Shown: piece after piece, positions 5,241-16,502 of the stretch | Position numbering within the stretch: position 1 is the stretch's first letter | Layout: each line of letters opens with the position of its first letter | Virus record (IMG/VR): IMGVR_UViG_3300046692_000595 | Coordinates: 1 to 34,122 of that record | Source of the DNA: a virus | Reading direction: 5' to 3' (one strand) | Length of the DNA: 34,122 nt | Made by a program: the position numbers and the translations under genes | The notes under the pieces: generated by a model | What the model was told of the DNA's origin: nothing | What the model saw: the letters and a program-made list of their open reading frames with translations, nothing else | The model's database searches: none

Positions 5241-5566
5241 CAGCTCCACCTCATCACAATCAGCCGCATGGTTCCGGACGAGGTAGTGCTCGCCGCAAAG
5301 GTACGCGTGTGGTTATAGACGCGAGCGACACCGTCTAGCATTTCGGTTTCAAACTGCATTTGAGAAGCGCTGTATGCACCAGTCGGAACCACAATAGCGG
5401 TACCATTTCCGGGACCTACGCCAGGTACTGCAAAATCCTGACTTCCCTTCGACGCCCCTAACGCGAAAGTCACAAGTGTTGAAAGCGCGACGCGGATCGT
5501 GAACGAGTTCTCGTCGATCTGAAGCGCACCGTCGGCGCCCCAGATCCTCATTCCATAATTACTCAT
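5240..5566 (-). CDS. Small tail-tip accessory protein
   Basis: A 108-residue protein beginning MSNYGMRIWGADGALQIDENS at ATG 5566, directly overlapping the J stop (ATGA). It is beta-rich, Ser/Thr/Gly rich, with no Cys and no signal. It is related in its first 20 residues to two places in the next gene, so the pair probably arose by duplication. By position it may cap or decorate the J tip. The family is not named here with confidence. Confidence 0.65.
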   Translation of the reverse strand: MSNYGMRIWGADGALQIDENSFTIRVALSTLVTFALGASKGSQDFAVPGVGPGNGTAIVVPTGAYSASQMQFETEMLDGVARVYNHTRTFAASTTSSGTMRLIVMRWS

Positions 5567-8500
5567 GCGGCCAAGTTCCCCCATTGATAGCGCTTGACGC
5601 CGTTTTCATCAAACACCTTGCCGCCGTTGTTGTTGATCGTCTGGCGCGCACCGCCGCCCAGCGGGCTATTGAGTTCAAAATTGCCAGCCTTATCGATTCG
5701 CCACCCTTGAACTCCGGCGATGTAGTTGTCCGACTGGATGAAGAACCCAATCTTGGCGTTTCCGATGGAAGCGTCCGCGATAAACGCCGAGTTCATGAAC
5801 ACTTGGCCACCCTGAACCGCAAACGGCACCGAGATGGCGCCACCGGCGATGGTATTAACGATGGCGAATCGATCAGCTGCGACCAGAAACTGGCTTTGCA
5901 GGCCGGCGCCGGTATTTTCAATTCCAAGACCGATGCCGGCAGCGACGTACTGCCCGTTTGCAGTGATCTGCATCTTCACCGACCACATAGTGGTCAGCTT
6001 CCCATTGGTATCGGCGAACGCTGTCGAGGTTTCCTGAATGGCGGCGGTGTTCTCGCCGACTTTCACGTTCACCTGAGTGATCGCCTGCGCAGTGGCTTCC
6101 TTGTCCGTCGCTACCGTCTGACGCAGATCAGTGACATTGGCTTCGTTTTCACCAACTTTTACGTCGAGCGTTGTTATCTTCTGCGCGCTGGCGAGATTCT
6201 CCGAAGCTCTAACCTTTTCTTCCGTGGCAACCGCTGCAGTGGTGGACCAACCTTTCAGCGCATCCTCCAGTTCACCCTCCCCATCGTCATCACGGAAAGA
6301 GGCCCGCAGCGCCTGAAAGGCAGTTGACTGCGCCGTCACCGCGCCGTCGAGTTCGATGATCTCGGCAGTGTTGGTAGCCACCTGCTGCGCCAGGCCATTT
6401 GCGGTTTCTACCGTCTGCCCAACGTCGAGCCAGTAAGCGGGATTCGGCGGAGGCGTTTCTTTGGGTACTGGCCCGGTGGCTTGGTAGATCCGCTTGCCGA
6501 CGACCACAAGGTCGTATTCCTCGTAGATGTCGTCCGGGTTGTAAGTCTTTAGCCCGTCCAGTGCATCGATCTGCGCCTGAAGTCCGGGGATCTTGTCGAT
6601 CTCGTCGAGGATGTCCTGCCCTAACTCGGTACGGCCGATCTCGCCCGCGATCATTTCCAGAATCGCGGCAGCGTCAGAACTCGATTGCCCCTGCACACCG
6701 ATGCCGATCGGATACCAAGGCCCGATGTTGCCGATCTTGTCTACGATCCGTCCCCAGAAGTAGAACGTCACGCCGGCGCGCAGGCCGAGCATGGAGAAAT
6801 CGCTCTGCGGGTAAGCCAGGTCGGTCAGTTTGGTCGCGGCTTCCAGCACGGTCGTCGGACCGTGCCAGATCTCCGTGCGCTGGCTGTCCTCTGCACCTGG
6901 TGGGAAACCCCACTTCAGATAGATGCCGAACAGCAGCGGCGTGGCTGTCAGGTAGCTGAGCGCCGGTGGCAGACCCTGTTTGCCTTTAAGATTAGTCAGG
7001 ATCGAATTTCGCCAGATTGACGTGATGTCGAATGCGCTCACCGCGCGGACACGGGCCACATAGGCGCCAGCGTAGATCCCGACCACGTCGACGTTGGTCA
7101 TGCCGGTGCGCTGCAGCTTGATCCAGTTGCCGCTATCCTTGCGCCATTCGATGTCATATCCGACAGCACCATCCACGGCGGGCCAACTGATGGTCATCGT
7201 GGCCACGGCCAATCCTTGTACGACCGCCGAAGTTGAAACAACCGTGACGCTCGCCGGGGCAGGAACGACTGTAATAGGAATCACGCTGATCGGGCGCTCT
7301 TCAAGCCGAGCGCCAGTGTCGATGTAGGCAAACTTGCTCGGGTCGTATTGCAGCGCGCTGATTTCGAAGTCGCCCTCGGTGGTGCGTTTGGTGCGCAACA
7401 CGCGGTACAGCGGAATCGCGAGGTCATCGGCGTCGAGCGCCCATTGCAGTTGCGCGGTCGGCGGCTCGCTGTAGTTTGTGGTCACTGTCACAGCGCGCCC
7501 GTTGACGCTTTGCACCGTGCGGCCTTCGGCGCGCCCGCCCGGCAAGTTGATGATCAACCGGTCACCGGCCTTGGCCTGCGTATCACGGTCGAGCGTAACC
7601 ACGCGGCCAGAGGCGACCGAGATACGCCCGCCCACCTCGCGCCCAGCCAGCAGCGAATCCGCCACCGGAATGATGTGTCCTGGCAGAGGGATTACGCCTT
7701 CCATGCCGGTCTTGAACGACACGGTGCGATCTTGGTTGTTGCTGAGGATCGCCCACTTACCGCGCCGCTGCGCCTCAGATGCGCGAGTGCAGCCAATGGC
7801 GCTCAGCTCGGTCGGACGGTCGCCATAGCGGCGTTGCAGTTCGAGGTCGGCAAACGGAATGACATCAGTGTCGTAGTTGTTCGCCGGGTTGTCGTAGCTG
7901 ACCAATGCCCGGGTGTAACGGGTTTTAGCCGAAGCACTGCCGTAGGAGAACTTGCCGTCGATGACGTTCGCCCGAGTGAAGACGTAATCGAAGTCCTGCG
8001 CGCGCGGCATGTCCGCTTGCATCACCAGTTGCCCCTGCGCCCAGTAAGTCATGCCCCGATAGATGCCGGCGATATCGCGCAGCAATGACCAGGCGTCAGC
8101 CTTGCCCTGCAGGTTCATGTCGCAAAGAAAACGCGGCTCCAGTCCGCCCAACCCGTTCGGCACCATCTGGTCGCAATACTGGGCGATCCGGTAGAGCTCC
8201 CACTTGTCGACCATGAACGGCTTGATGCGCTTGCCTAGACCGAACATGTCGTTGGTGCACACGCCGTAGGTGATCCACGCCGGGTTATTGGTCCAGGCTG
8301 ATTTCATCGAGCCGTCCCACGTTCCGGTGTAGGAGCGCAGGATCGGGTCGTAATTGCTCGGCACCATCCAGCGCCGCGCCTTGCACTTCACAGTCACAGC
8401 CGGAATGTTGGTGAACTGCTCGGCGTCGAATTCAATGTAGAGCAGCGCGGTGTTCGGGTAGCGAAGCTTGGCGTCGATCACTTCGGTGTAACCTGCCACC

Positions 8501-9129
8501 AGCATGGTGTCAGCGATCTTGTTGCTGTTCTGGTTCGGCGTCAGGCGGCGCACTCGGATCTGCCAGCCAGTGGTTGCTTCGGGCAGATCGATACGGCGCG
8601 AGCGCTCATAGCGAGTGGTGGTCTTGCCGTCGACCGCGTCCACCAGCACCTGCTGATAGGCGCCGCCATCGGTGGCCACGTCAATGGCGTAGTCGATGCG
8701 ATACCCGCCGACGTTGCCTTCATCGTCAGCGCGCTGCAGGGCTGGCCATGCCAGACGCACGCGCACAGCCGAAAGCTGGGTGTTGGTGATGGAGCGCACC
8801 CACGCCGCATCGCTGCGCAGTTCGACATTCAGTGAAGTCTCGTTCTCCACGGAAGGGATGCCGGGGATGTACGTCTGGTTCACTGAGCCAGGGCGCCAAT
8901 CCCACTTCACACCGGGGAAGTTGTAGTTGCCGCTGGCATCGCGGATCGGCGTGTTGTCCAGGTAGATGTCGTATTCGGTCGGCACCGCGTCGAACTCGCC
9001 CTCGCCCACGGCGATGAGCAGCTTTGCCAAGTTGGTCGAGCGCAGGCTGTCGCTGGCTTCGACTGGCGACTTCGGCTTGCTGCTGCCGCCCTTCTCGCCG
9101 TGGATATCGATCTGTTCTGCTGCGCCCAT
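5563..9129 (-). CDS. Tail tip / central fibre host-specificity protein, lambda gpJ-like
   Basis: An 1188-residue homologue of lambda J. The N-terminal 600 residues contain the hub region, with characteristic stretches KLLIAVGEGEFDAVP, IYLDNTPI, NPAWITYGVCTND and PEFLCD-like PRFLCDMNLQG. Two fibronectin-III-like segments follow at about 610-720 and 725-815. A helical coiled-coil part rich in TAxAxTxxNV repeats spans about 910-1040. A beta-rich C-terminal domain of the DUF1983 type (MQITANGQYVAAGIGLGIEN onward) spans about 1048-1188. It should form the trimeric tip that contacts the host receptor; specificity usually resides in the C-terminal part. ATG 9129 has a strong GGAGGAAA site just after a terminator-like hairpin. 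The end overlaps the next gene by ATGA. Confidence 0.93.
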   Translation of the reverse strand: MGAAEQIDIHGEKGGSSKPKSPVEASDSLRSTNLAKLLIAVGEGEFDAVPTEYDIYLDNTPIRDASGNYNFPGVKWDWRPGSVNQTYIPGIPSVENETSLNVELRSDAAWVRSITNTQLSAVRVRLAWPALQRADDEGNVGGYRIDYAIDVATDGGAYQQVLVDAVDGKTTTRYERSRRIDLPEATTGWQIRVRRLTPNQNSNKIADTMLVAGYTEVIDAKLRYPNTALLYIEFDAEQFTNIPAVTVKCKARRWMVPSNYDPILRSYTGTWDGSMKSAWTNNPAWITYGVCTNDMFGLGKRIKPFMVDKWELYRIAQYCDQMVPNGLGGLEPRFLCDMNLQGKADAWSLLRDIAGIYRGMTYWAQGQLVMQADMPRAQDFDYVFTRANVIDGKFSYGSASAKTRYTRALVSYDNPANNYDTDVIPFADLELQRRYGDRPTELSAIGCTRASEAQRRGKWAILSNNQDRTVSFKTGMEGVIPLPGHIIPVADSLLAGREVGGRISVASGRVVTLDRDTQAKAGDRLIINLPGGRAEGRTVQSVNGRAVTVTTNYSEPPTAQLQWALDADDLAIPLYRVLRTKRTTEGDFEISALQYDPSKFAYIDTGARLEERPISVIPITVVPAPASVTVVSTSAVVQGLAVATMTISWPAVDGAVGYDIEWRKDSGNWIKLQRTGMTNVDVVGIYAGAYVARVRAVSAFDITSIWRNSILTNLKGKQGLPPALSYLTATPLLFGIYLKWGFPPGAEDSQRTEIWHGPTTVLEAATKLTDLAYPQSDFSMLGLRAGVTFYFWGRIVDKIGNIGPWYPIGIGVQGQSSSDAAAILEMIAGEIGRTELGQDILDEIDKIPGLQAQIDALDGLKTYNPDDIYEEYDLVVVGKRIYQATGPVPKETPPPNPAYWLDVGQTVETANGLAQQVATNTAEIIELDGAVTAQSTAFQALRASFRDDDGEGELEDALKGWSTTAAVATEEKVRASENLASAQKITTLDVKVGENEANVTDLRQTVATDKEATAQAITQVNVKVGENTAAIQETSTAFADTNGKLTTMWSVKMQITANGQYVAAGIGLGIENTGAGLQSQFLVAADRFAIVNTIAGGAISVPFAVQGGQVFMNSAFIADASIGNAKIGFFIQSDNYIAGVQGWRIDKAGNFELNSPLGGGARQTINNNGGKVFDENGVKRYQWGNLAA

Positions 9130-9143
9130 GCTTTCCTCCAGGC

Positions 9144-9169
9144 ATAAAAAAACCGCCTCGCGGGCGGTT
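9144..9169 (-). terminator. Hairpin with T-run between I and J
   Basis: Minus-strand arms AACCGCC and GGCGGTT (9151-9169) with a five-base loop, followed by a run of seven T and ATGCCTGGAGGAAA, which holds the J ribosome site. It is a strong intrinsic-terminator-like structure inside the late operon. Confidence 0.7.
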
Positions 9170-9187
9170 GGGGTTTTGCTGTACTGC

Positions 9188-9790
9188 TTACACTTTGTCT
9201 TCAGCCAGGATCGAGGCCGAGATGATCATCCCGCCCCACCGGCGTTCACCGATGCAGATCGGCACCGGGTTTCCGCTGGCGGTGGTGTTCTTGGCGCTGC
9301 CGAAGGCATAGGACGGGGAGTTTTCGGGGGATGCGCTTTGCTTCAGGCCTGAGGCTTGGGGGCTCAGCATTTGAATCACACCGCCCGCGACCAAGCCAAT
9401 ACCCGCGCCGATCAGCGGCGCCCCGAAGGGAGTTGTCGATAAAAACGTACCCGCAACAATCAGAACCGCACCGACAATGGTTTGAATCAACCCGGCTTTC
9501 TTGCTTCCGTGAATGACCGGCACGATTCGAATGTCAGTCGCCCCACCCAAGCCAAATTCCGTCTCGCCAACGTTCCTTCGATTGCGAAACACCGCGAAGC
9601 GCATACCCAGCCGATCAAGGCGCTGTATCTCCTCCTTGAATCCTTCAAGCGTCGCCTGCAACGCTCGGAATGCCTCCCAGGTCTGGCCAGAATCCAAGAC
9701 TCGACGATGAACTCTGCCAAACTTGGCCGCCAGAGACCCGGATAGCTTGATCGTGGTCATCGGCTGATAGTGAGCGGCGATCGACTGCAT
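9188..9790 (-). CDS. Tail assembly protein I, lambda gpI-like
   Basis: A 200-residue TapI-family protein located immediately before J as in lambda. The first 100 residues include the LSGSLAAKFGR and WEAFRALQATLEGF motifs of the N-terminal ubiquitin-like region. Residues about 120-155 form a hydrophobic glycine-rich hairpin (IVGAVLIVAGTFL and LIGAGIGLVAGGVIQML). The C-terminal part includes SYAFGSAKNTTASGNPVPICIGERRWGG. Lambda I assists assembly of the tail tip with J, L and K and is not in the mature virion. Start ATG 9790 has GGAGAAAG upstream after another hairpin/T-run junction. Confidence 0.9.
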   Translation of the reverse strand: MQSIAAHYQPMTTIKLSGSLAAKFGRVHRRVLDSGQTWEAFRALQATLEGFKEEIQRLDRLGMRFAVFRNRRNVGETEFGLGGATDIRIVPVIHGSKKAGLIQTIVGAVLIVAGTFLSTTPFGAPLIGAGIGLVAGGVIQMLSPQASGLKQSASPENSPSYAFGSAKNTTASGNPVPICIGERRWGGMIISASILAEDKV

Positions 9791-9803
9791 AACTTTCTCC
9801 AGG

Positions 9804-9827
9804 CATAAAAAAACCGCCCGAAGGCGG
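9804..9827 (-). terminator. Hairpin with T-run upstream of gene I
   Basis: Minus-strand arms CCGCC and GGCGG with a four-base UUCG loop (9814-9827), followed by seven T and ATGCCTGGAGAAAG. It closes the inserted lipoprotein/AbiTii segment and carries the ribosome site of gene I. A UUCG tetraloop makes the hairpin unusually stable. Confidence 0.7.
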
Positions 9828-9843
9828 CTGATTGCAAATTCAC

Positions 9844-10266
9844 TTACTGGTAATCGACGTAAGGGCCAATGATAAAGCCGCTCATGTCTCCACTGATTCG
9901 GTAGAGGCTTTCTTTGCCACTCTGCACATTGGCAGAGATCGTACGGATGGCTGCCCCGCCACAGAGCCCAGAGCCGGCAAGGCCTGCTCCGATACTTGGG
10001 TTGCCCGGCGGCAGGTAAAAGGAAGCGCGCTGTCCGGTTCCGATCTTTGCCGCCTTCCGGCCATCGACGTAAACCACGATGTCACAACCAGACCCAACCA
10101 TTCCCGAGTCCCGGACGACCGTCACCTTGCCGCTTTCGCCGCCCGGCTTATTTTGAAAGGCGTACAGCTCATCACGCGGCACCGGATCAGCCTGGCTAAC
10201 CGGAATTGCAGAAGAGGCACACCCCGCCAACAGCGCTACCGCCAGCGCTCCTACGATCAGTTTCAT
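9844..10266 (-). CDS. Prophage lipoprotein, possible exclusion factor
   Basis: A 140-residue protein with a lipoprotein signal: MKLIVGALAVALLAGC, lipobox LLAGC with Cys16, followed by ASSA (no Asp at +2, so outer-membrane sorting is expected). The mature part is glycine rich and beta-like, with VVYVDGRKAAKI and YLPPGNPSIGAGLAG segments reminiscent of small DUF2846-like lipoproteins. ATG 10266 has AGGAG eight bases upstream, preferred over ATG 10275. It lies between tail genes K and I, where lambda has nothing, together with an AbiTii gene. Phage lipoproteins at such sites often block superinfection or DNA injection; that role is inferred, not shown. Confidence 0.8.
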   Translation of the reverse strand: MKLIVGALAVALLAGCASSAIPVSQADPVPRDELYAFQNKPGGESGKVTVVRDSGMVGSGCDIVVYVDGRKAAKIGTGQRASFYLPPGNPSIGAGLAGSGLCGGAAIRTISANVQSGKESLYRISGDMSGFIIGPYVDYQ

Positions 10267-10352
10267 GCAGGTCACTCCTGTGAAAATTGATGCGATATAT
10301 CACTTGGGCAAAAATGCCCAACTTGTGCTGGGCTCCTAGCGATTCAGGATCA

Positions 10353-11219
10353 TCAATTCACCAGCGAATGAATTAACGGCGCAGCCGTCGCCAGTACATT
10401 ACCAGCGGCGCCTTCCAACACCCGCTGAATACTCAATGCTGTTTCCTTGATGATTGACGCTTTTGGTCGGGGGGACTCTGCTTGTGCCTCAAGAGTCTTG
10501 AGCTCTGCCGCGAGTTCAGCAGCTGAGCTCCCCTGAACCTCTTGGCGCTGAAGCGTCTCTTGAAGTAAAACTATCAACGAGTTAAGAGCCTCGGAGGGAT
10601 TACCCTGCACCATTTCTTGACTTGAGCCATTAGAACCTATCTGGATTTGAGATCCTGTCACATTGCCGAAATGATAGTGCTGCGCTGCCACAATATTTCG
10701 CTCCTCAATCGTAAAAGACAACCCTTCACCCAGCACGCCCTTCGATTCCAAATCCAGCGCCCACTGCAAAATGCGGCTACGCACCTGCTCGATCAGTCCG
10801 AAGAGCTGGGTTACCTGGGCTTCGACCGCCGGCCGGGTTTGGGGAGACATGCCGCTCCTGAGGGTTGCCTCTAACTTAGGCGGAAAGAACAACAACACAG
10901 AACCACCCTCAGCTACCAAGCGTTCAAGTTCAGGAATGGAAATGAAGATTGGCCGCTGAGAAAACATAGCATTCATAGCTGGATCGCGAACTTCAAGTGG
11001 CATCCACCCTCCAAGCTCGCTTTCACAAACCGGTACGCCTCGAACCTTTCGGTAGTCAGGTACGGGGCCAGCGTAACCGCTTAGCTCAGAGTTCAACCAA
11101 CTGACTAGATCAGGAAGGTTGAGTCTGCTCGCGGTCACCAGCGCTTGACGTAACAGACTTGCAACGGGCGTATCAGCTCTCATTGCATTGTTGACCAATT
11201 CCGTAACAAGAGCGGGCAC
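10353..11219 (-). CDS. AbiTii-domain protein, candidate abortive-infection factor
   Basis: A 288-residue protein. Residues 1-125 match the AbiTii domain pattern: helical VNNAMRADTPVASLLRQALVTASRL, then LPDLVSWLNSELSGY, PDYRKVRGVPV and a GGWMPLEV...DPAM...RPIFISIPELERL segment. A helix follows at 130-160, then the linker HYHFGNVTGSQIQIGSNGSSQ (182-201), a glycine/Ser motif I associate with AbiTii proteins, and a charged helical C-terminal region ending in a hydrophobic Ala/Leu stretch (267-287). There is no enzymatic motif. GTG 11219 is backed by a perfect AAGGAGG six bases upstream. It interrupts the K-I tail gene order. The AbiTii name is from abortive infection; its mechanism is unknown, and action here against competing phages is inferred. 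Confidence 0.82.
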   Translation of the reverse strand: MPALVTELVNNAMRADTPVASLLRQALVTASRLNLPDLVSWLNSELSGYAGPVPDYRKVRGVPVCESELGGWMPLEVRDPAMNAMFSQRPIFISIPELERLVAEGGSVLLFFPPKLEATLRSGMSPQTRPAVEAQVTQLFGLIEQVRSRILQWALDLESKGVLGEGLSFTIEERNIVAAQHYHFGNVTGSQIQIGSNGSSQEMVQGNPSEALNSLIVLLQETLQRQEVQGSSAAELAAELKTLEAQAESPRPKASIIKETALSIQRVLEGAAGNVLATAAPLIHSLVN

Positions 11220-11285
11220 TGAATGCCTCCTTAACTCACAAATTACATGGCGTACGAATTTCCGATTCGGCCATTTTGTATGTCT

Positions 11286-12080
11286 TTAGTCAATGGTAAC
11301 TCTGGCGGCACCTGCGTTATTTCGCTGTATCGCATTCCAATTCCTGAGAATTAGCCGGGTTCGATCTAGCCACGGCCCGCCGAAGACGATGATCTCGCTC
11401 GGACGGCCGTACAGGTGGTGCAATAGGAATGGGCCGGGGCCGAAGGTTGCCGCTTCCTCACCAGGTAGTGCCGGATCGGCGCCGAGGAATATCCCGGCGT
11501 GGTTTGGGTAAACGGTGCGCCCCACTTCCATCACGATCATGTCGCCGCGCTGCGGCTGGTCGACGCGGTAGAAGCCGGCGGACTCGTAGTTCGCCTCGTA
11601 CAGGCTGGTGTTGTCCTTGCTCTCCCACCAGCCATCGGCGCGCTTGAAGGCCTCGAACTCCAGACCCCACTCGCGCTTGTACCAGTCGGCGCAGACCTGC
11701 CAGCAGTCCCAGGCACCGTGCACAAAAGGCCGTTTCAATAGCGGCACCTCGCCGGACGGTATGACCGTTCGAAGATCGCCCTCGGGCCAGCTCAGGATGT
11801 GCCAAGGCAATGCGGTCGCTTCGCACATGGCGAGGTCACGTGGTGACGGCCTGCTGGTAGCGTCTGGATGCGAATGAACCACGCCGATCACTTCGCCAAC
11901 GTCTTCGGCCGCCGCGTACTCCTCCGGGTCGATTCGAAACTCTTCGTTGGGCTCGGTAGAGACGTTGGTGCAGGGAAAGTATTGTTGCTTGCGCCCGATC
12001 GCCAGCAACAGCCCGCAGCACTCTTTCGGGTACTCGGCTGCCGCGTGCGCCTGGATCGCGTTCAAGATGTGCTTTCGCAT
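11286..12080 (-). CDS. Tail tip assembly protein K: JAMM peptidase plus NlpC/P60
   Basis: A 264-residue homologue of lambda K with two enzyme-like domains. Residues 1-90 form an MPN/JAMM metalloprotease domain: E20 and the motif H69-x-H71-P with S79 and D82. Residues 120-264 form an NlpC/P60 cysteine peptidase domain with the WDCW motif (C126) and a likely catalytic His H194 in YPNHAGIF. In lambda, K is needed for tail tip assembly, and the peptidase domains may trim tip proteins or open peptidoglycan during entry. Start ATG 12080 lies one base after the L stop. All catalytic residues appear present, so both domains may be active. Confidence 0.9.
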   Translation of the reverse strand: MRKHILNAIQAHAAAEYPKECCGLLLAIGRKQQYFPCTNVSTEPNEEFRIDPEEYAAAEDVGEVIGVVHSHPDATSRPSPRDLAMCEATALPWHILSWPEGDLRTVIPSGEVPLLKRPFVHGAWDCWQVCADWYKREWGLEFEAFKRADGWWESKDNTSLYEANYESAGFYRVDQPQRGDMIVMEVGRTVYPNHAGIFLGADPALPGEEAATFGPGPFLLHHLYGRPSEIIVFGGPWLDRTRLILRNWNAIQRNNAGAARVTID

Positions 12081-12081
12081 G

Positions 12082-12831
12082 TCAGCTCCGCGCGATCAGG
12101 GAAACAGCCGGGAAGCCACCGTGTGGCAATGGATTGTTCTCACCGAAGCGAGGCATACAGCCCTTGCCCAGCGTGGCATCGCACTCGTCCAGTTCAGGGT
12201 TGTCGGTAACGACGCCATCCTTCGTAACGTACGGGCCGGTGTAGCCGCAGTTCGGTCCGCGATAACCGCCGGTGAGACACCAATGGCAAAGGGTTGTGGC
12301 CTGCCTCCCGATTGATTCATTACCCACATCGCCGGGGCTGGCCAACTCCCAGCTAACAGTCTCCCCGTCCTCGTTCATTTTCTGGTCGATGTACCAGACT
12401 TCGATCGTCTCTTGGGTCGGATCTGCCGTCGGATTGCCGACTGGAAAGTTCGTCGAGTCGAGGTAGGTGCCCAGGGTGTGTCGCATCGTCAGCTTGAACT
12501 CGAGCAGATCCTCGAACGCCAGACAGAGCGCAGTGATGCGCCCGTTGACGTTGCCAACCGAGAGCGTAGGGCGAACGGCAGTGCCGTCGCCGTTCGCCTC
12601 GATGCCGTCGATCTGCATGGGCCAGGCGCTGTACTCGTTGCCCTGCCAGTAGATAGCCTTCGCCGGCAGTTGGTCGGCATTGTCGCCGGCGGCGATCAGC
12701 TCGGCCGCCGTGTGCGGAATCGCGTGCCCGTGAAAGCGCAACACGTCCGCACCGTAGTCCGTACCGTCCAATTCAAAGAGCAGCACTTCGCTCCCAGGCT
12801 CAAGTATCTGGATGTCACTGATCAGCGGCAT
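12082..12831 (-). CDS. Minor tail protein L, Fe-S-type, lambda gpL-like
   Basis: A 249-residue tail tip protein. The N-terminal part is beta-rich (IQILEPGSEVLLFELDGTDYG). The C-terminal 70 residues carry a Cys set, C182, C185, C195, C217 and C225, in TLCHWCLTGGYRGPNCGYTG and ECDATLGKGCMPRFG. Lambda L is reported to bind a 4Fe-4S cluster through such C-terminal cysteines, so the same is expected here. Order M-L-K matches lambda. Start ATG 12831 is ten bases past the M stop. Confidence 0.9.
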   Translation of the reverse strand: MPLISDIQILEPGSEVLLFELDGTDYGADVLRFHGHAIPHTAAELIAAGDNADQLPAKAIYWQGNEYSAWPMQIDGIEANGDGTAVRPTLSVGNVNGRITALCLAFEDLLEFKLTMRHTLGTYLDSTNFPVGNPTADPTQETIEVWYIDQKMNEDGETVSWELASPGDVGNESIGRQATTLCHWCLTGGYRGPNCGYTGPYVTKDGVVTDNPELDECDATLGKGCMPRFGENNPLPHGGFPAVSLIARS

Positions 12832-12840
12832 GATTGCCCC

Positions 12841-13179
12841 TTATGGATGGAATGCACGCTCGAACGTGGCGGTGAGTTTGAAAACGCCGCCGCCCACCGG
12901 GGTGGGCACGGGGTTCTTGCAGGTAAACAGGCCAAGCTGGCCCAAAGGCGTCGTCCAAAGGAAGGCTTTTGCGCCGGCGTGCCGGTCGAGGAACGCCATG
13001 ATCTCCTGCACCTTGGCTTGGGAGCCGCTGTAGGTGATCGGGTAAGCGTCTTCCTTGTTGTTCGGCCCGTCGCCAACTTCCTGCTTGTAGCCGCCGCCAA
13101 ACTGCGAGGTGCGCACCCGATAGGTAATCTCGGGCGAGTCACCATGCTGAGTCGGCCAAGTAAATTTTTCGATGGCCAT
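12841..13179 (-). CDS. Minor tail protein M, lambda gpM-like
   Basis: A 112-residue tail tip protein. The recognisable features are FTWPTQHGDSPEITYRVRTSQFGGGYKQ near the N-terminus, AFLDRHAGAKAFLWTTPLG in the middle and a final TATFERAF strand, the style of the gpM / distal tail family. It joins the end of the tube to the tip complex. ATG 13179 overlaps the tape measure TGA by ATGA. Confidence 0.88.
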   Translation of the reverse strand: MAIEKFTWPTQHGDSPEITYRVRTSQFGGGYKQEVGDGPNNKEDAYPITYSGSQAKVQEIMAFLDRHAGAKAFLWTTPLGQLGLFTCKNPVPTPVGGGVFKLTATFERAFHP

Positions 13180-16100
13180 CAGCCCCTCCCATTTGTAAGG
13201 CGCCAGATCGAGCCACCTGGTTGAAGCGCTCGGGCAATAGCGGTTTCCGCCTCAGCTTTCGCGGCTTGTTGAATGCCCTTGCCCAATTGCGATGTGTCTT
13301 CAGTGCTCGCTGCGCCCCCGTTGCCTGCGTTTTGCACTGACACTGCCACGGGGAAGTTGTAGGTGTTGCCGCCACCGGTACCGGACATTGCGGCAAGCCC
13401 TGGCCCGCCACCGAAAGTCAGAGGTGTGACGCTACCGCCACTCGCGCCAGTCATGAGGTAAGACCTGCCGCCCTGATTGAAAAGCTCAGGCCCCTTTTCG
13501 TTCACTTCGTAGAAAGTGTTCGGTTCGACACCACCACCAACAGCACGACCACCACCGAAAGACACGGATGCTGAGCTGGCATCAAACTGACTGCCAAAAC
13601 TCTGAGCCCCGGCCTCCGCCCCGCCTGCCGTTGCAGACGCCGTCGCCCCGCCTCCTGTGAAGTAACTTGTAGCGGCCCCAACCAGACTGCTCAGCAATGC
13701 CGAACTGGCCTGCCGAGTGGCAATGCGCGCCATATCCGCCAGAATCGATTTGGTGAAGTCTGCGAACGACAGTTTCCCAGTCATGGCGAAATTGACGATC
13801 GCGTCTTCCATCGAACTGAAGGCGCTGGTGAACAAGCCCTTAGTCTGCCCCGCAACGTCCCGTGCGGAATCGAGGTAGTTCTGCCATGCCGAAGACGCTC
13901 CGGCACTCCAGTCACCCTGGGCTGCCGTCATCTCGTCGTAGTTGGCTTGAACCGTGTCGTGCAGGTCCTGTTGGGTTACGTTCAGTGCCGCCAGCTTCTG
14001 CGTGTACTCGTCGAGGTTCATGCCGCGCGAGCCATCGCCGTACTGGTTCGCCAGATCCAGCCTCTGCTGATTTAAGCGATCGTCGATGCCGTTCTGCTGG
14101 CTCATCAGATCGCGCTGACGATCACCCAGGCCGATGCCCGCCGCCGCACGCTGGCCCTGCTCACGCAGAGTTTTGACTTGTTGCTGCAACGCGCTGCTGT
14201 AGGTATTGACGGCATCGGCCTGCTTCTTTAGCCGACCTTCTTCGTTCTTCGCCAGCACGCTCAATTCGTTGTCAGCATCCTGCTGCACCTTGACCATGGC
14301 AGCCCGGGCGTCGGCGATTTTCTGGTCAAGCTGGATGCGCTGCGCGGCCGATGTACCTGCCTTGCTCTTAGCTGCTTCCAGTGCGGCGATCTCAGCCTCA
14401 TACGCAGCAGTGACCTCGTCGCGCTCGTTGCCGATCATGGCTTCGCGAGCTTGCAGATAATCAGCCTGCGAGATTAGCCCAGCCTTTTGTGAAGCCTCCA
14501 AATCCTTTTGAGCATTTTTGTACTCGGCGAGCACGGCATTGAGCGCGTTTTTCGAGTCATTGAAACCAGATAGATCGACGCTGCCTGCCGCTGCCTTGGG
14601 GTCCTTTTTCTGCTCGTCAATCGCCTTGCGCAGCTTGTCGTAGGCTCCACCAGTGAACTTCTCCCCGTCGTAGAACACGCCATCAAGCAACGGAGATTTC
14701 TGGCCGGTCTTATCGGAGTTTTCATAAAGCGTCTTGAACTGATCGTTGAGCTTTTTGTAAGCATCCTCACGCTTCGCAAGCGGATTGAGGTTGTCCATCT
14801 GCTTATCCAGTTCCTTCTGGACAGCGATCAACTCCTTGTTTGCCCGAGTCTCTTCACCGGTGGCGGCAGCGTTGTTTTCGCTTGCCGACAAACGAGCCTT
14901 CAGCCCTGCAAGCCTAGCCTCCAGCGCCGGCGTCGAATCGTCGTTTTGTCCCTCGCCCAGCCCCAAAGAAGAGTTCAGCCAACTCAATCCGTTCGATAAC
15001 GCGCCTGTGACACCGCCGCCCTTCCGGGTATCCAGCACGCGCTGGGTGATTTCGATCTGCTTGGCAAGATCTGGGAAAATCTCTGATCGGACTTCGGCGT
15101 AAGCGCCCTTGATGGCCACCTTAACCCGATCCCAATCGCGTTCGATATCGGACAGGGATTCGCGGTAATGCTTCAAGCGCTGCTGGGCCGACTGATTGAG
15201 ATCTTCACTCAAGGTGTCCAGCGCTCGCTGATGGTCACCCTGATCATCAATCGCCTTGATCGTCTGGTACTGCTCGTAGGTAAGCAGCGCATACTGGTCG
15301 CTGATCTTCTCCGCTGCTTCTGTGGCGGTGTCTCCGGCATTCGCAAGCGACTTGGCGATGTCTCCAGCGCCCTTCCCTGTCACTTCACCTATTGCTGCGG
15401 CGGCCTGAGCCAGGTTCTGCATCTGGACGCCGCTGTTAGCGGCACCGGAAGCCAGGGCAATCACCGCCTCGCGAGCGCCCGCAAAGTTCTCAGTGATCGC
15501 CCCGGAGGTGTCAGCCATCACCTTGAGACTGGCAATGCTCTGCCCAGCATCGTTCGATCCGCCATTGATGGCGACGTTGAACTCGCGGGCCTGCTTCTGT
15601 GCGTCGAAGTAGGCATAGCCCAGAGCGCCAAGGACGCCAGCCAGCAAGCCTGCAGGAATCAGTGCTGCGGCCAAGCTCTTGGCGGACGCGCCCGCACCAG
15701 CGCCCAACTGAGCAACAGCCCGCGCACCACTACCCCAATCCCCAGACTGCAGGGCATTGGTCAACTGCATCACGTTTTCTTGCGCCTGGCGGGTGCCGAG
15801 CTTCAGCTTGTCGAATGCAGTTTCTGTCGCGGTCAGGCCGTCACGGTCTTTACCGATCTTCGCCAGCGCCTCACCGTAACGAGTCGCGTCGATCTGGCCG
15901 GCCTTGTGCAGATCGTTGAGCGCTTTCTCCTGCGCCTCCAGCTTTGCCAGCTTCGCAGTGACCGGGTCGATGCCGTTGACCGTACGCTTCAACGCTTCGA
16001 TCTGACGGTTTTCAGCATCGATCAGCCGCTGCTTCTGAGCCATTTCCTTGGCTTCAGCTTTCTCGATCCGCTCATATGCCTTGCCAAGCCGATCCTGATA

Positions 16101-16502
16101 GGACTCCTGCTGCTCGATGGTGACGAGACCGCCCTTGCGAGCGCGCTCCAGCAAGCCTTCAGCCTGGATCAGTTGCTCCATGCTGCCGATGTTGCCGGAC
16201 ATCGCCTTGTCGAGCTGGCTGATGATTGCGATTTCACTAGCCGCGCTGGCACCGGCCTTGCGGCTGGCATCGACCTGGCGCTCTTTGGCGCCCGTGGCCT
16301 TGTCGATACCCTGAGCAACCTCGTTCTCGGCCTGACTGATCTTCTTGCCAGTGTTGGCCAGTCCTTCGCCCGACTTGCCGAGATCATCAATGGCTTTTTC
16401 AGCATCGACCGCCGAATCGACCAGCTTGTCGAGATCGTCAGCCGCCTTGGATGCCGACGAGGAGTTCACCTCAATGCCGAGGGACGCGAAGGTGGTGCTC
16501 AT
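13179..16502 (-). CDS. Tail tape measure protein, lambda gpH-like
   Basis: A 1107-residue tape measure protein that sets tail length. It is mostly heptad-rich coiled coil (about 15-270 and 330-880), interrupted by a hydrophobic segment at about 275-300 (LAAALIPAGLLAGVLGALGYAYF) that may enter the host membrane during DNA injection. The lambda-H type domain follows (REFNVAINGG, IALASGAANSG, IGEVTGKGAGDIAKSLANAGDTATEAAE). The C-terminal domain begins with LSFADFTKSILADMARIATRQASSALLSSL at about 906, then a glycine-rich tail with GGRAVGGGVEPNTFYEVNEKGPELF. Length predicts a tail somewhat longer than lambda's (lambda H is about 850 residues). ATG 16502 overlaps the T stop. Confidence 0.93.
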   Translation of the reverse strand: MSTTFASLGIEVNSSSASKAADDLDKLVDSAVDAEKAIDDLGKSGEGLANTGKKISQAENEVAQGIDKATGAKERQVDASRKAGASAASEIAIISQLDKAMSGNIGSMEQLIQAEGLLERARKGGLVTIEQQESYQDRLGKAYERIEKAEAKEMAQKQRLIDAENRQIEALKRTVNGIDPVTAKLAKLEAQEKALNDLHKAGQIDATRYGEALAKIGKDRDGLTATETAFDKLKLGTRQAQENVMQLTNALQSGDWGSGARAVAQLGAGAGASAKSLAAALIPAGLLAGVLGALGYAYFDAQKQAREFNVAINGGSNDAGQSIASLKVMADTSGAITENFAGAREAVIALASGAANSGVQMQNLAQAAAAIGEVTGKGAGDIAKSLANAGDTATEAAEKISDQYALLTYEQYQTIKAIDDQGDHQRALDTLSEDLNQSAQQRLKHYRESLSDIERDWDRVKVAIKGAYAEVRSEIFPDLAKQIEITQRVLDTRKGGGVTGALSNGLSWLNSSLGLGEGQNDDSTPALEARLAGLKARLSASENNAAATGEETRANKELIAVQKELDKQMDNLNPLAKREDAYKKLNDQFKTLYENSDKTGQKSPLLDGVFYDGEKFTGGAYDKLRKAIDEQKKDPKAAAGSVDLSGFNDSKNALNAVLAEYKNAQKDLEASQKAGLISQADYLQAREAMIGNERDEVTAAYEAEIAALEAAKSKAGTSAAQRIQLDQKIADARAAMVKVQQDADNELSVLAKNEEGRLKKQADAVNTYSSALQQQVKTLREQGQRAAAGIGLGDRQRDLMSQQNGIDDRLNQQRLDLANQYGDGSRGMNLDEYTQKLAALNVTQQDLHDTVQANYDEMTAAQGDWSAGASSAWQNYLDSARDVAGQTKGLFTSAFSSMEDAIVNFAMTGKLSFADFTKSILADMARIATRQASSALLSSLVGAATSYFTGGGATASATAGGAEAGAQSFGSQFDASSASVSFGGGRAVGGGVEPNTFYEVNEKGPELFNQGGRSYLMTGASGGSVTPLTFGGGPGLAAMSGTGGGNTYNFPVAVSVQNAGNGGAASTEDTSQLGKGIQQAAKAEAETAIARALQPGGSIWRLTNGRG

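Follow-up and report, generated by a model that had tools for sequence, protein, structure and literature searches.

The window analyzed here, a virus record of 34,122 bases, carries two genes between the lambda-like tail genes K and I, one encoding an AbiTii-domain protein and the other a lipoprotein. A first, sequence-only reading took the adjacency of K, I and J as the norm for lambda-like phages and interpreted the two intervening genes as a two-part exclusion cassette. The locus raises the questions of why extra genes are found at this position at all, and whether the two genes present here belong together.

Genes and signals between K and I

The tail genes of the window are located on the minus strand in the order tape measure, M, L, K, AbiTii, lipoprotein, I, J. 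Profile searches identified L, K, I and J, and the tape measure gene (13179-16502) and M were named by their size and their synteny with annotated relatives. The features of the region are as follows:

5563-9129, minus strand: central tail fibre gene J (Pfam FNIII-A_GpJ, E-value 2.1e-48; Phage_Tail_Tip, 4.8e-48)
9188-9790, minus strand: tail assembly gene I (phrog_32, E-value 1.1e-64)
9797-9813, minus strand: TTTTTTTATGCCTGGAG ahead of gene I; this 17-mer recurs before J at 9136-9152
9812-9829, minus strand: UUCG-loop terminator after the lipoprotein gene
9844-10266, minus strand: lipoprotein of 140 aa with lipobox LLAGC, PHROG 890 family (phrog_890, E-value 3.8e-43)
10294-10302, minus strand: TGATATATC, imperfect copy of an extended -10-like element conserved ahead of the lipoprotein gene (GnTAhAnT in relatives)
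10310-11343, minus strand: candidate exchanged cargo cassette, no nucleotide match in relatives (approximate boundaries by blastn)
10316-10333, minus strand: terminator-like hairpin after the AbiTii gene
10353-11219, minus strand: AbiTii protein of 288 aa with a GTG start (Pfam PF18864 and PADLOC AbiTii)
10356-10667, minus strand: low-confidence linker (aa 185-206) and AbiTi-like four-helix C-terminal module (PADLOC profiles; model helices 208-287)
10677-11210, minus strand: AbiTii alpha+beta domain (aa 4-181; profile; AlphaFold pLDDT mostly 80-94)
11226-11232, minus strand: AAGGAGG ribosome-binding site of the AbiTii gene, 6 nt ahead of its start
11286-12080, minus strand: gene for tail tip protein K, with JAB peptidase and NlpC/P60 domains (Pfam Prok-JAB, 2.7e-19; NLPC_P60, 1.3e-7)

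The description of the locus given in the sequence-only reading was largely confirmed. The AbiTii domain is present, as PF18864 matched with an E-value of 1.9e-35 and 123.2 bits against a cut-off of 27.6, covering positions 2-188 of the 189 in the profile, and the PADLOC AbiTii profile matched the same ORF with an E-value of 2.9e-37. The AAGGAGG site and the lipobox are where they had been reported, the flanking genes are indeed K, I and J, and the UUCG hairpin with its T-run closes the block; every one of the 26 close relatives that were aligned has kept it. The hairpin at 10316-10333, which separates the AbiTii gene from the lipoprotein gene, had been overlooked. No Rfam matches were found within 9000-12200.

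The TTGACT at 11288-11293 on the minus strand, noted earlier as lacking a good -10, overlaps the end of K. A consensus scan of the 160 nt upstream of the AbiTii gene, crude for Pseudomonas, detected no promoter-like site. AbiTii production may thus be confined to late lysis, and its expression may come via readthrough from the tail operon. It could then act in the lytic cycle of the phage itself, with co-infecting phages or satellites as possible targets, instead of in the lysogen. The position of the gene on the tail-operon strand, 66 nt after K and behind a strong ribosome-binding site, would suit such timing. However, on plasmids and chromosomes its homologues are solitary genes that belong to no late operon, and the failure to find a promoter depends on the crude scan. 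We consider a purely late role fairly unlikely and favor a gene that may be expressed in the lysogen.

The likely start of the lipoprotein is ATG 10266 rather than GTG 10275, because the signal peptide MKLIVGALAVALLAGC, which contains the lipobox, starts at this ATG and an AGGAG is found 8 nt ahead of it. The PHROG 890 match covers positions 1-131 of the 136 in the profile. The GnTAhAnT element occurs at -35 to -33 from the lipoprotein start codon in 30 out of 55 relatives; the pattern was picked after viewing the alignment, and it was found 0, 0, 0 and 1 times in four control windows and 0.66 times in shuffles. The copy of the window, TGATATATC, does not match the pattern. Since both the -10-like element in the relatives and the terminator are conserved, the lipoprotein looks independently transcribed.

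In addition to its exact copies before I and J, TTTTTTTATGCCTGGAG has a third copy with 2 mismatches at 2779-2795. Both exact copies are located immediately 3' of a terminator, forming a repeated terminator-RBS element that flanks gene I and could serve as a recombination joint. At the edge of the window, beyond an Rz-like lysis gene (1846-2415), a minus-strand ORF at 1-606 carries a response-regulator receiver domain (Pfam E-value 1e-7); this ORF is possibly host DNA or cargo.

The K-I interval among relatives

K and the lipoprotein were used to fetch related loci, annotated phages supplied further ones, and 144 distinct K-I intervals were compared. The survey used the best 80 loci per query, with genes called as the longest ORF, and the loci are not independent. 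The lipoprotein itself served as the query for half of the loci, which is why the 64 K-fetched intervals are the fair subset. The adjacency of K and I turned out not to be the norm among the relatives of this phage: all 144 intervals hold at least one gene and none is empty, the gap ranging from 434 to 6601 bp with a median of about 1.7 kb. Every interval has a lipoprotein ORF immediately upstream of I (142 by script and 2 by eye), including all 64 that were fetched via K. The distance from K to the lipoprotein varies from 38 to 6213 nt (median 1276).

Altogether 198 ORF clusters, toxin genes among them, occur in the intervals, and some of these clusters are certain to be antisense shadows. 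Among 92 representatives, Pfam and PADLOC hits were obtained for HEPN_AbiU2, HigB, YafO, SocA/Panacea, TIR, HSDR_N, Peptidase_M78 with HTH (CapP/CapH-like) and a superinfection immunity protein (PF14373), and also for Rha and P22 antirepressors, LysE and GNAT. Many of the cargo genes have no defence-like domain. Cargo ORFs of 85 aa or more were present in 58 K-fetched intervals, and in 44 of these such an ORF runs opposite to the tail genes, shadow ORFs being unfiltered in this count. The slot of Pseudomonas phage Medea1 (L004, 5308-8626) is filled with HTH, Arc-like and Rha antirepressor genes, which gives the impression of a regulatory module that has moved into the tail operon.

The variable segment has sharp edges. 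In 107 out of 142 cases the alignments of K stop at 11340-11349, within the last ~19 codons of the gene, and these codons vary together with the cargo. On the other side, nucleotide matches begin again at 10310-10240, which is at the lipoprotein start or slightly ahead of it, and no blastn alignment with the loci of any relative falls inside the AbiTii gene. The GC3 of the AbiTii gene is 0.52, compared with 0.755 for K, 0.753 for J and 0.68-0.76 for the neighboring tail genes. The gene is thus absent at the same site in close relatives and has a foreign composition, as is characteristic of morons. Such edges would be expected if cassettes had been exchanged through recombination within the genes on either side.

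Taken together, we consider it probable that the gap between K and I is a cargo slot with a fixed tenant, the lipoprotein, and a changeable moron cassette, which here carries AbiTii. The fixed tenant next to gene I would be an outer-membrane-type lipoprotein that has a -10-like element and a terminator to itself, and the space between K and the lipoprotein would be taken by the cassette, in this prophage a single AbiTii-family gene. Cassettes would be swapped through recombination in the flanking tail genes.

The distribution of the two genes speaks against the two-part cassette, in which a cytoplasmic AbiTii and an envelope lipoprotein cooperate. In the window they are neighbors on one strand, which speaks for such cooperation, but the lipoprotein family is found in nearly all intervals and AbiTii in just two of the 144 (best 80 loci per query). 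The second AbiTii interval, L006 (the same prophage as L166, from Pseudomonas costantinii), encodes a 68% identical protein located about 3.8 kb from a lipoprotein of a different type, with HTH- and HEPN-like ORFs nearby. A search of 50 records with PF18864 gave a sole further hit, in the L033 record, about 25 kb from its K-I region. A 75% identical relative, L195, is found in another phage some 8.5 kb upstream of gene L, outside the K-I interval, and its 56-kb record has no PHROG 890 gene. Among the other AbiTii carriers, five phage records and the four plasmids checked have no PHROG 890 gene. AbiTii exceeded the cut-off in 14 out of 399 Pseudomonas genomes, and the loci returned had no K, I or lipoprotein within flanks of ~1.5 kb, except for the known prophage. 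More distant relatives (~49% identity) are single genes on many mobilizable plasmids. Co-occurrence with the same lipoprotein, on which the sequence-only reading had made the pairing depend, was therefore rare, and the hairpin between the two genes likewise argues against the pairing. The INDEPENDENCE of the two genes is clear from this distribution: AbiTii and the lipoprotein are separate tenants. We consider the two-part cassette extremely improbable.

Elsewhere, AbiTii genes were seen in tail regions of three other phages, at L197 (4001-4885), L199 (3959-4804) and L195 (4001-4870), two of them adjoining tape-measure-like ORFs. Another phage contig, L198, carries two tandem AbiTii genes at 1-1840, near a resolvase/invertase-like ORF.

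The AbiTii gene and its slot have known counterparts in morons and, putatively, in phage defence hotspots. The hotspots of P2 and P4 similarly offer a single position to many alternative anti-phage cargos (PMC9122126), but they are found in another phage group and at another position; in contrast to them the K-I slot always keeps its lipoprotein, and its cargo may be defensive. A comparable case is Tab of phage JBD26, a defence moron inserted among the late structural genes of a Pseudomonas prophage; it encodes a protein of 83 aa, is located on the opposite strand between the terminase genes, and has a promoter to itself as well as an anti-Tab partner (PMC10884400). On present evidence, Tab and AbiTii are not homologous. 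No description of the K-I slot or of AbiTii-lipoprotein pairing was found in the literature, with limited reach into subscription papers.

The lipoprotein tenant

At least six types of mature domain are found behind a near-constant signal peptide of the lipoprotein, on similar K, I and J backgrounds. The mature domain of the window protein was modeled as a beta-sandwich, for which no PDB match was found at an E-value of 0.001 or below. In a second structural comparison the best matches were domains of HGSNAT and AlgF with Z-scores of about 8, which is not decisive. A coupling of the lipoprotein type with gene I or J was also considered. The first test was positive for I, but the coupling was dropped because the types follow two phage clades.

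The PHROG 890 family occupies the same place between K and I in the coliphages mEp390 and CharmingMan where, unlike in the window, K is followed by the lipoprotein without any cargo gene in between. HK639 has the family member between its tape measure gene and its tail genes. The members in Vibrio phage H20 and SSU5 adjoin a CI-like repressor and a transcriptional repressor, respectively, far from the tail genes. This spread fits a gene that is useful to the lysogen.

The lipoprotein could instead be a structural or lysis accessory, given that it always adjoins tail gene I in this phage group. Its location beside repressor genes in H20 and SSU5 and the multitude of mature domains on one signal peptide are not what such a role would predict, and we find it distinctly unlikely. 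Exclusion appears to be the likeliest role: the lipoprotein would work alone, most likely by blocking the adsorption or the DNA entry of related phages. This view draws on an analogy with the mEpimmI coliphages, whose lipoproteins from the structural gene cluster block phage infection when expressed (PMC11893012). Those exclusion lipoproteins (Lpp021, Lpp010) are likewise short, encoded in the structural cluster and of several sequence types.

The AbiTii protein and its C-terminal module

An AlphaFold model of the AbiTii protein (mean pLDDT 79.9, 8-sequence alignment) shows an alpha+beta domain that ends near aa 180, a linker of low confidence (aa 185-206) and four helices (aa 208-287). Foldseek returned no hits for the model at an E-value of 0.001 or below, and the PDB sequence search gave nothing useful. 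A second structural comparison was uninformative, as nearly all matches were helical bundles aligned to aa 203-288 and the AbiTii domain itself was barely covered. No HEPN match was detected in the protein with Pfam. We also considered a membrane-inserting C-terminal helix, which was not supported, the highest hydropathy over 19 residues being just 1.01.

The C-terminal module resembles AbiTi. In the window protein, the PADLOC AbiTi profile matches it weakly (E-value 0.019), though over nearly the full profile length, and in 7 out of 10 homologues scanned the match had an E-value of at most 0.05. The best was in L172 (6.7e-6, profile positions 3-104 of 114). PDC-M14B models fit the same module more strongly than AbiTi does, with E-values down to 4.9e-11 in L172. 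There is no separate AbiTi gene in the window, the sole match to the profile at an E-value of up to 10 being the C-terminus of the AbiTii protein. Similarly, no standalone AbiTi genes were found in 398 Pseudomonadota genomes, as both hits were AbiTii proteins of about 300 aa.

In Lactococcus, AbiT consists of two genes, abiTi and abiTii (PMC3985639), whereas the AbiTii domain and the weakly AbiTi-like module are here joined in one chain of 288 aa in a Gram-negative prophage. The simplest reading of these profile matches is that the protein may be a single-chain AbiT. Published fusions of AbiTii with HEPN (c2405 or Ymh) also have the AbiTii domain at the N-terminus (PMC3710099), as does the window protein, which differs in ending with the AbiTi-like four-helix module.

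The AbiTii gene of this prophage is a predicted anti-phage gene, and no defence test of any AbiTii protein with this architecture was found in the literature consulted. As a cytoplasmic, single-chain AbiT-like defence protein, it would sense the incoming phage with its N-terminal AbiTii domain and stop growth or phage development with the C-terminal helical module. On two Aeromonas plasmids (L185, NZ_CP026221.1; L186, NZ_KX364409.1), arrays of AbiTii paralogues occur, with up to 10 tblastn places per plasmid, interspersed with membrane-type proteins of ~92 aa. Within these arrays the C-terminal half is on average 65% conserved and the N-terminal half 46%, the difference being seen in 18 of the 21 pairs. 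Such a pattern would fit a constant effector and a variable sensor; among close phage relatives the higher conservation of the C-terminus was not consistent.

The arrays also bring up another interpretation, in which AbiTii is a self-protection or immunity-type protein instead of a defence protein, as the array of L186 (pAsa8) reaches a PAAR-DUF2235 gene. This linkage is seen on one plasmid only and most carriers have no such neighbor. Moreover, the prototype of the AbiTii family is a phage-resistance gene. The immunity-type interpretation is very unlikely in our view, and we retain a predicted defence function.

Putting slot and protein together, we tentatively propose, with somewhat less than even confidence in the whole, that Pseudomonas-type lambda-like prophages have in their K-I interval a previously undescribed exchange slot for defence cargo with a built-in, allele-swapping exclusion lipoprotein, and that its AbiTii cargo is a fused, single-chain AbiT with a variable sensor and an AbiTi-like effector. 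The interval is fixed and easily scanned in a common group of Pseudomonas prophages, and its varying contents include many defence-like genes, which makes it a place to look for new anti-phage genes. To our knowledge, the mechanism of AbiT has long been unsolved; if AbiTii is a one-gene AbiT, this mechanism could be tested with a single protein in Gram-negative bacteria. Some further Pseudomonas AbiTii genes (L169, L177-L180 and L181-L183) have a C-terminus unlike the AbiTi-like module and resemble the published AbiTii-HEPN fusions.
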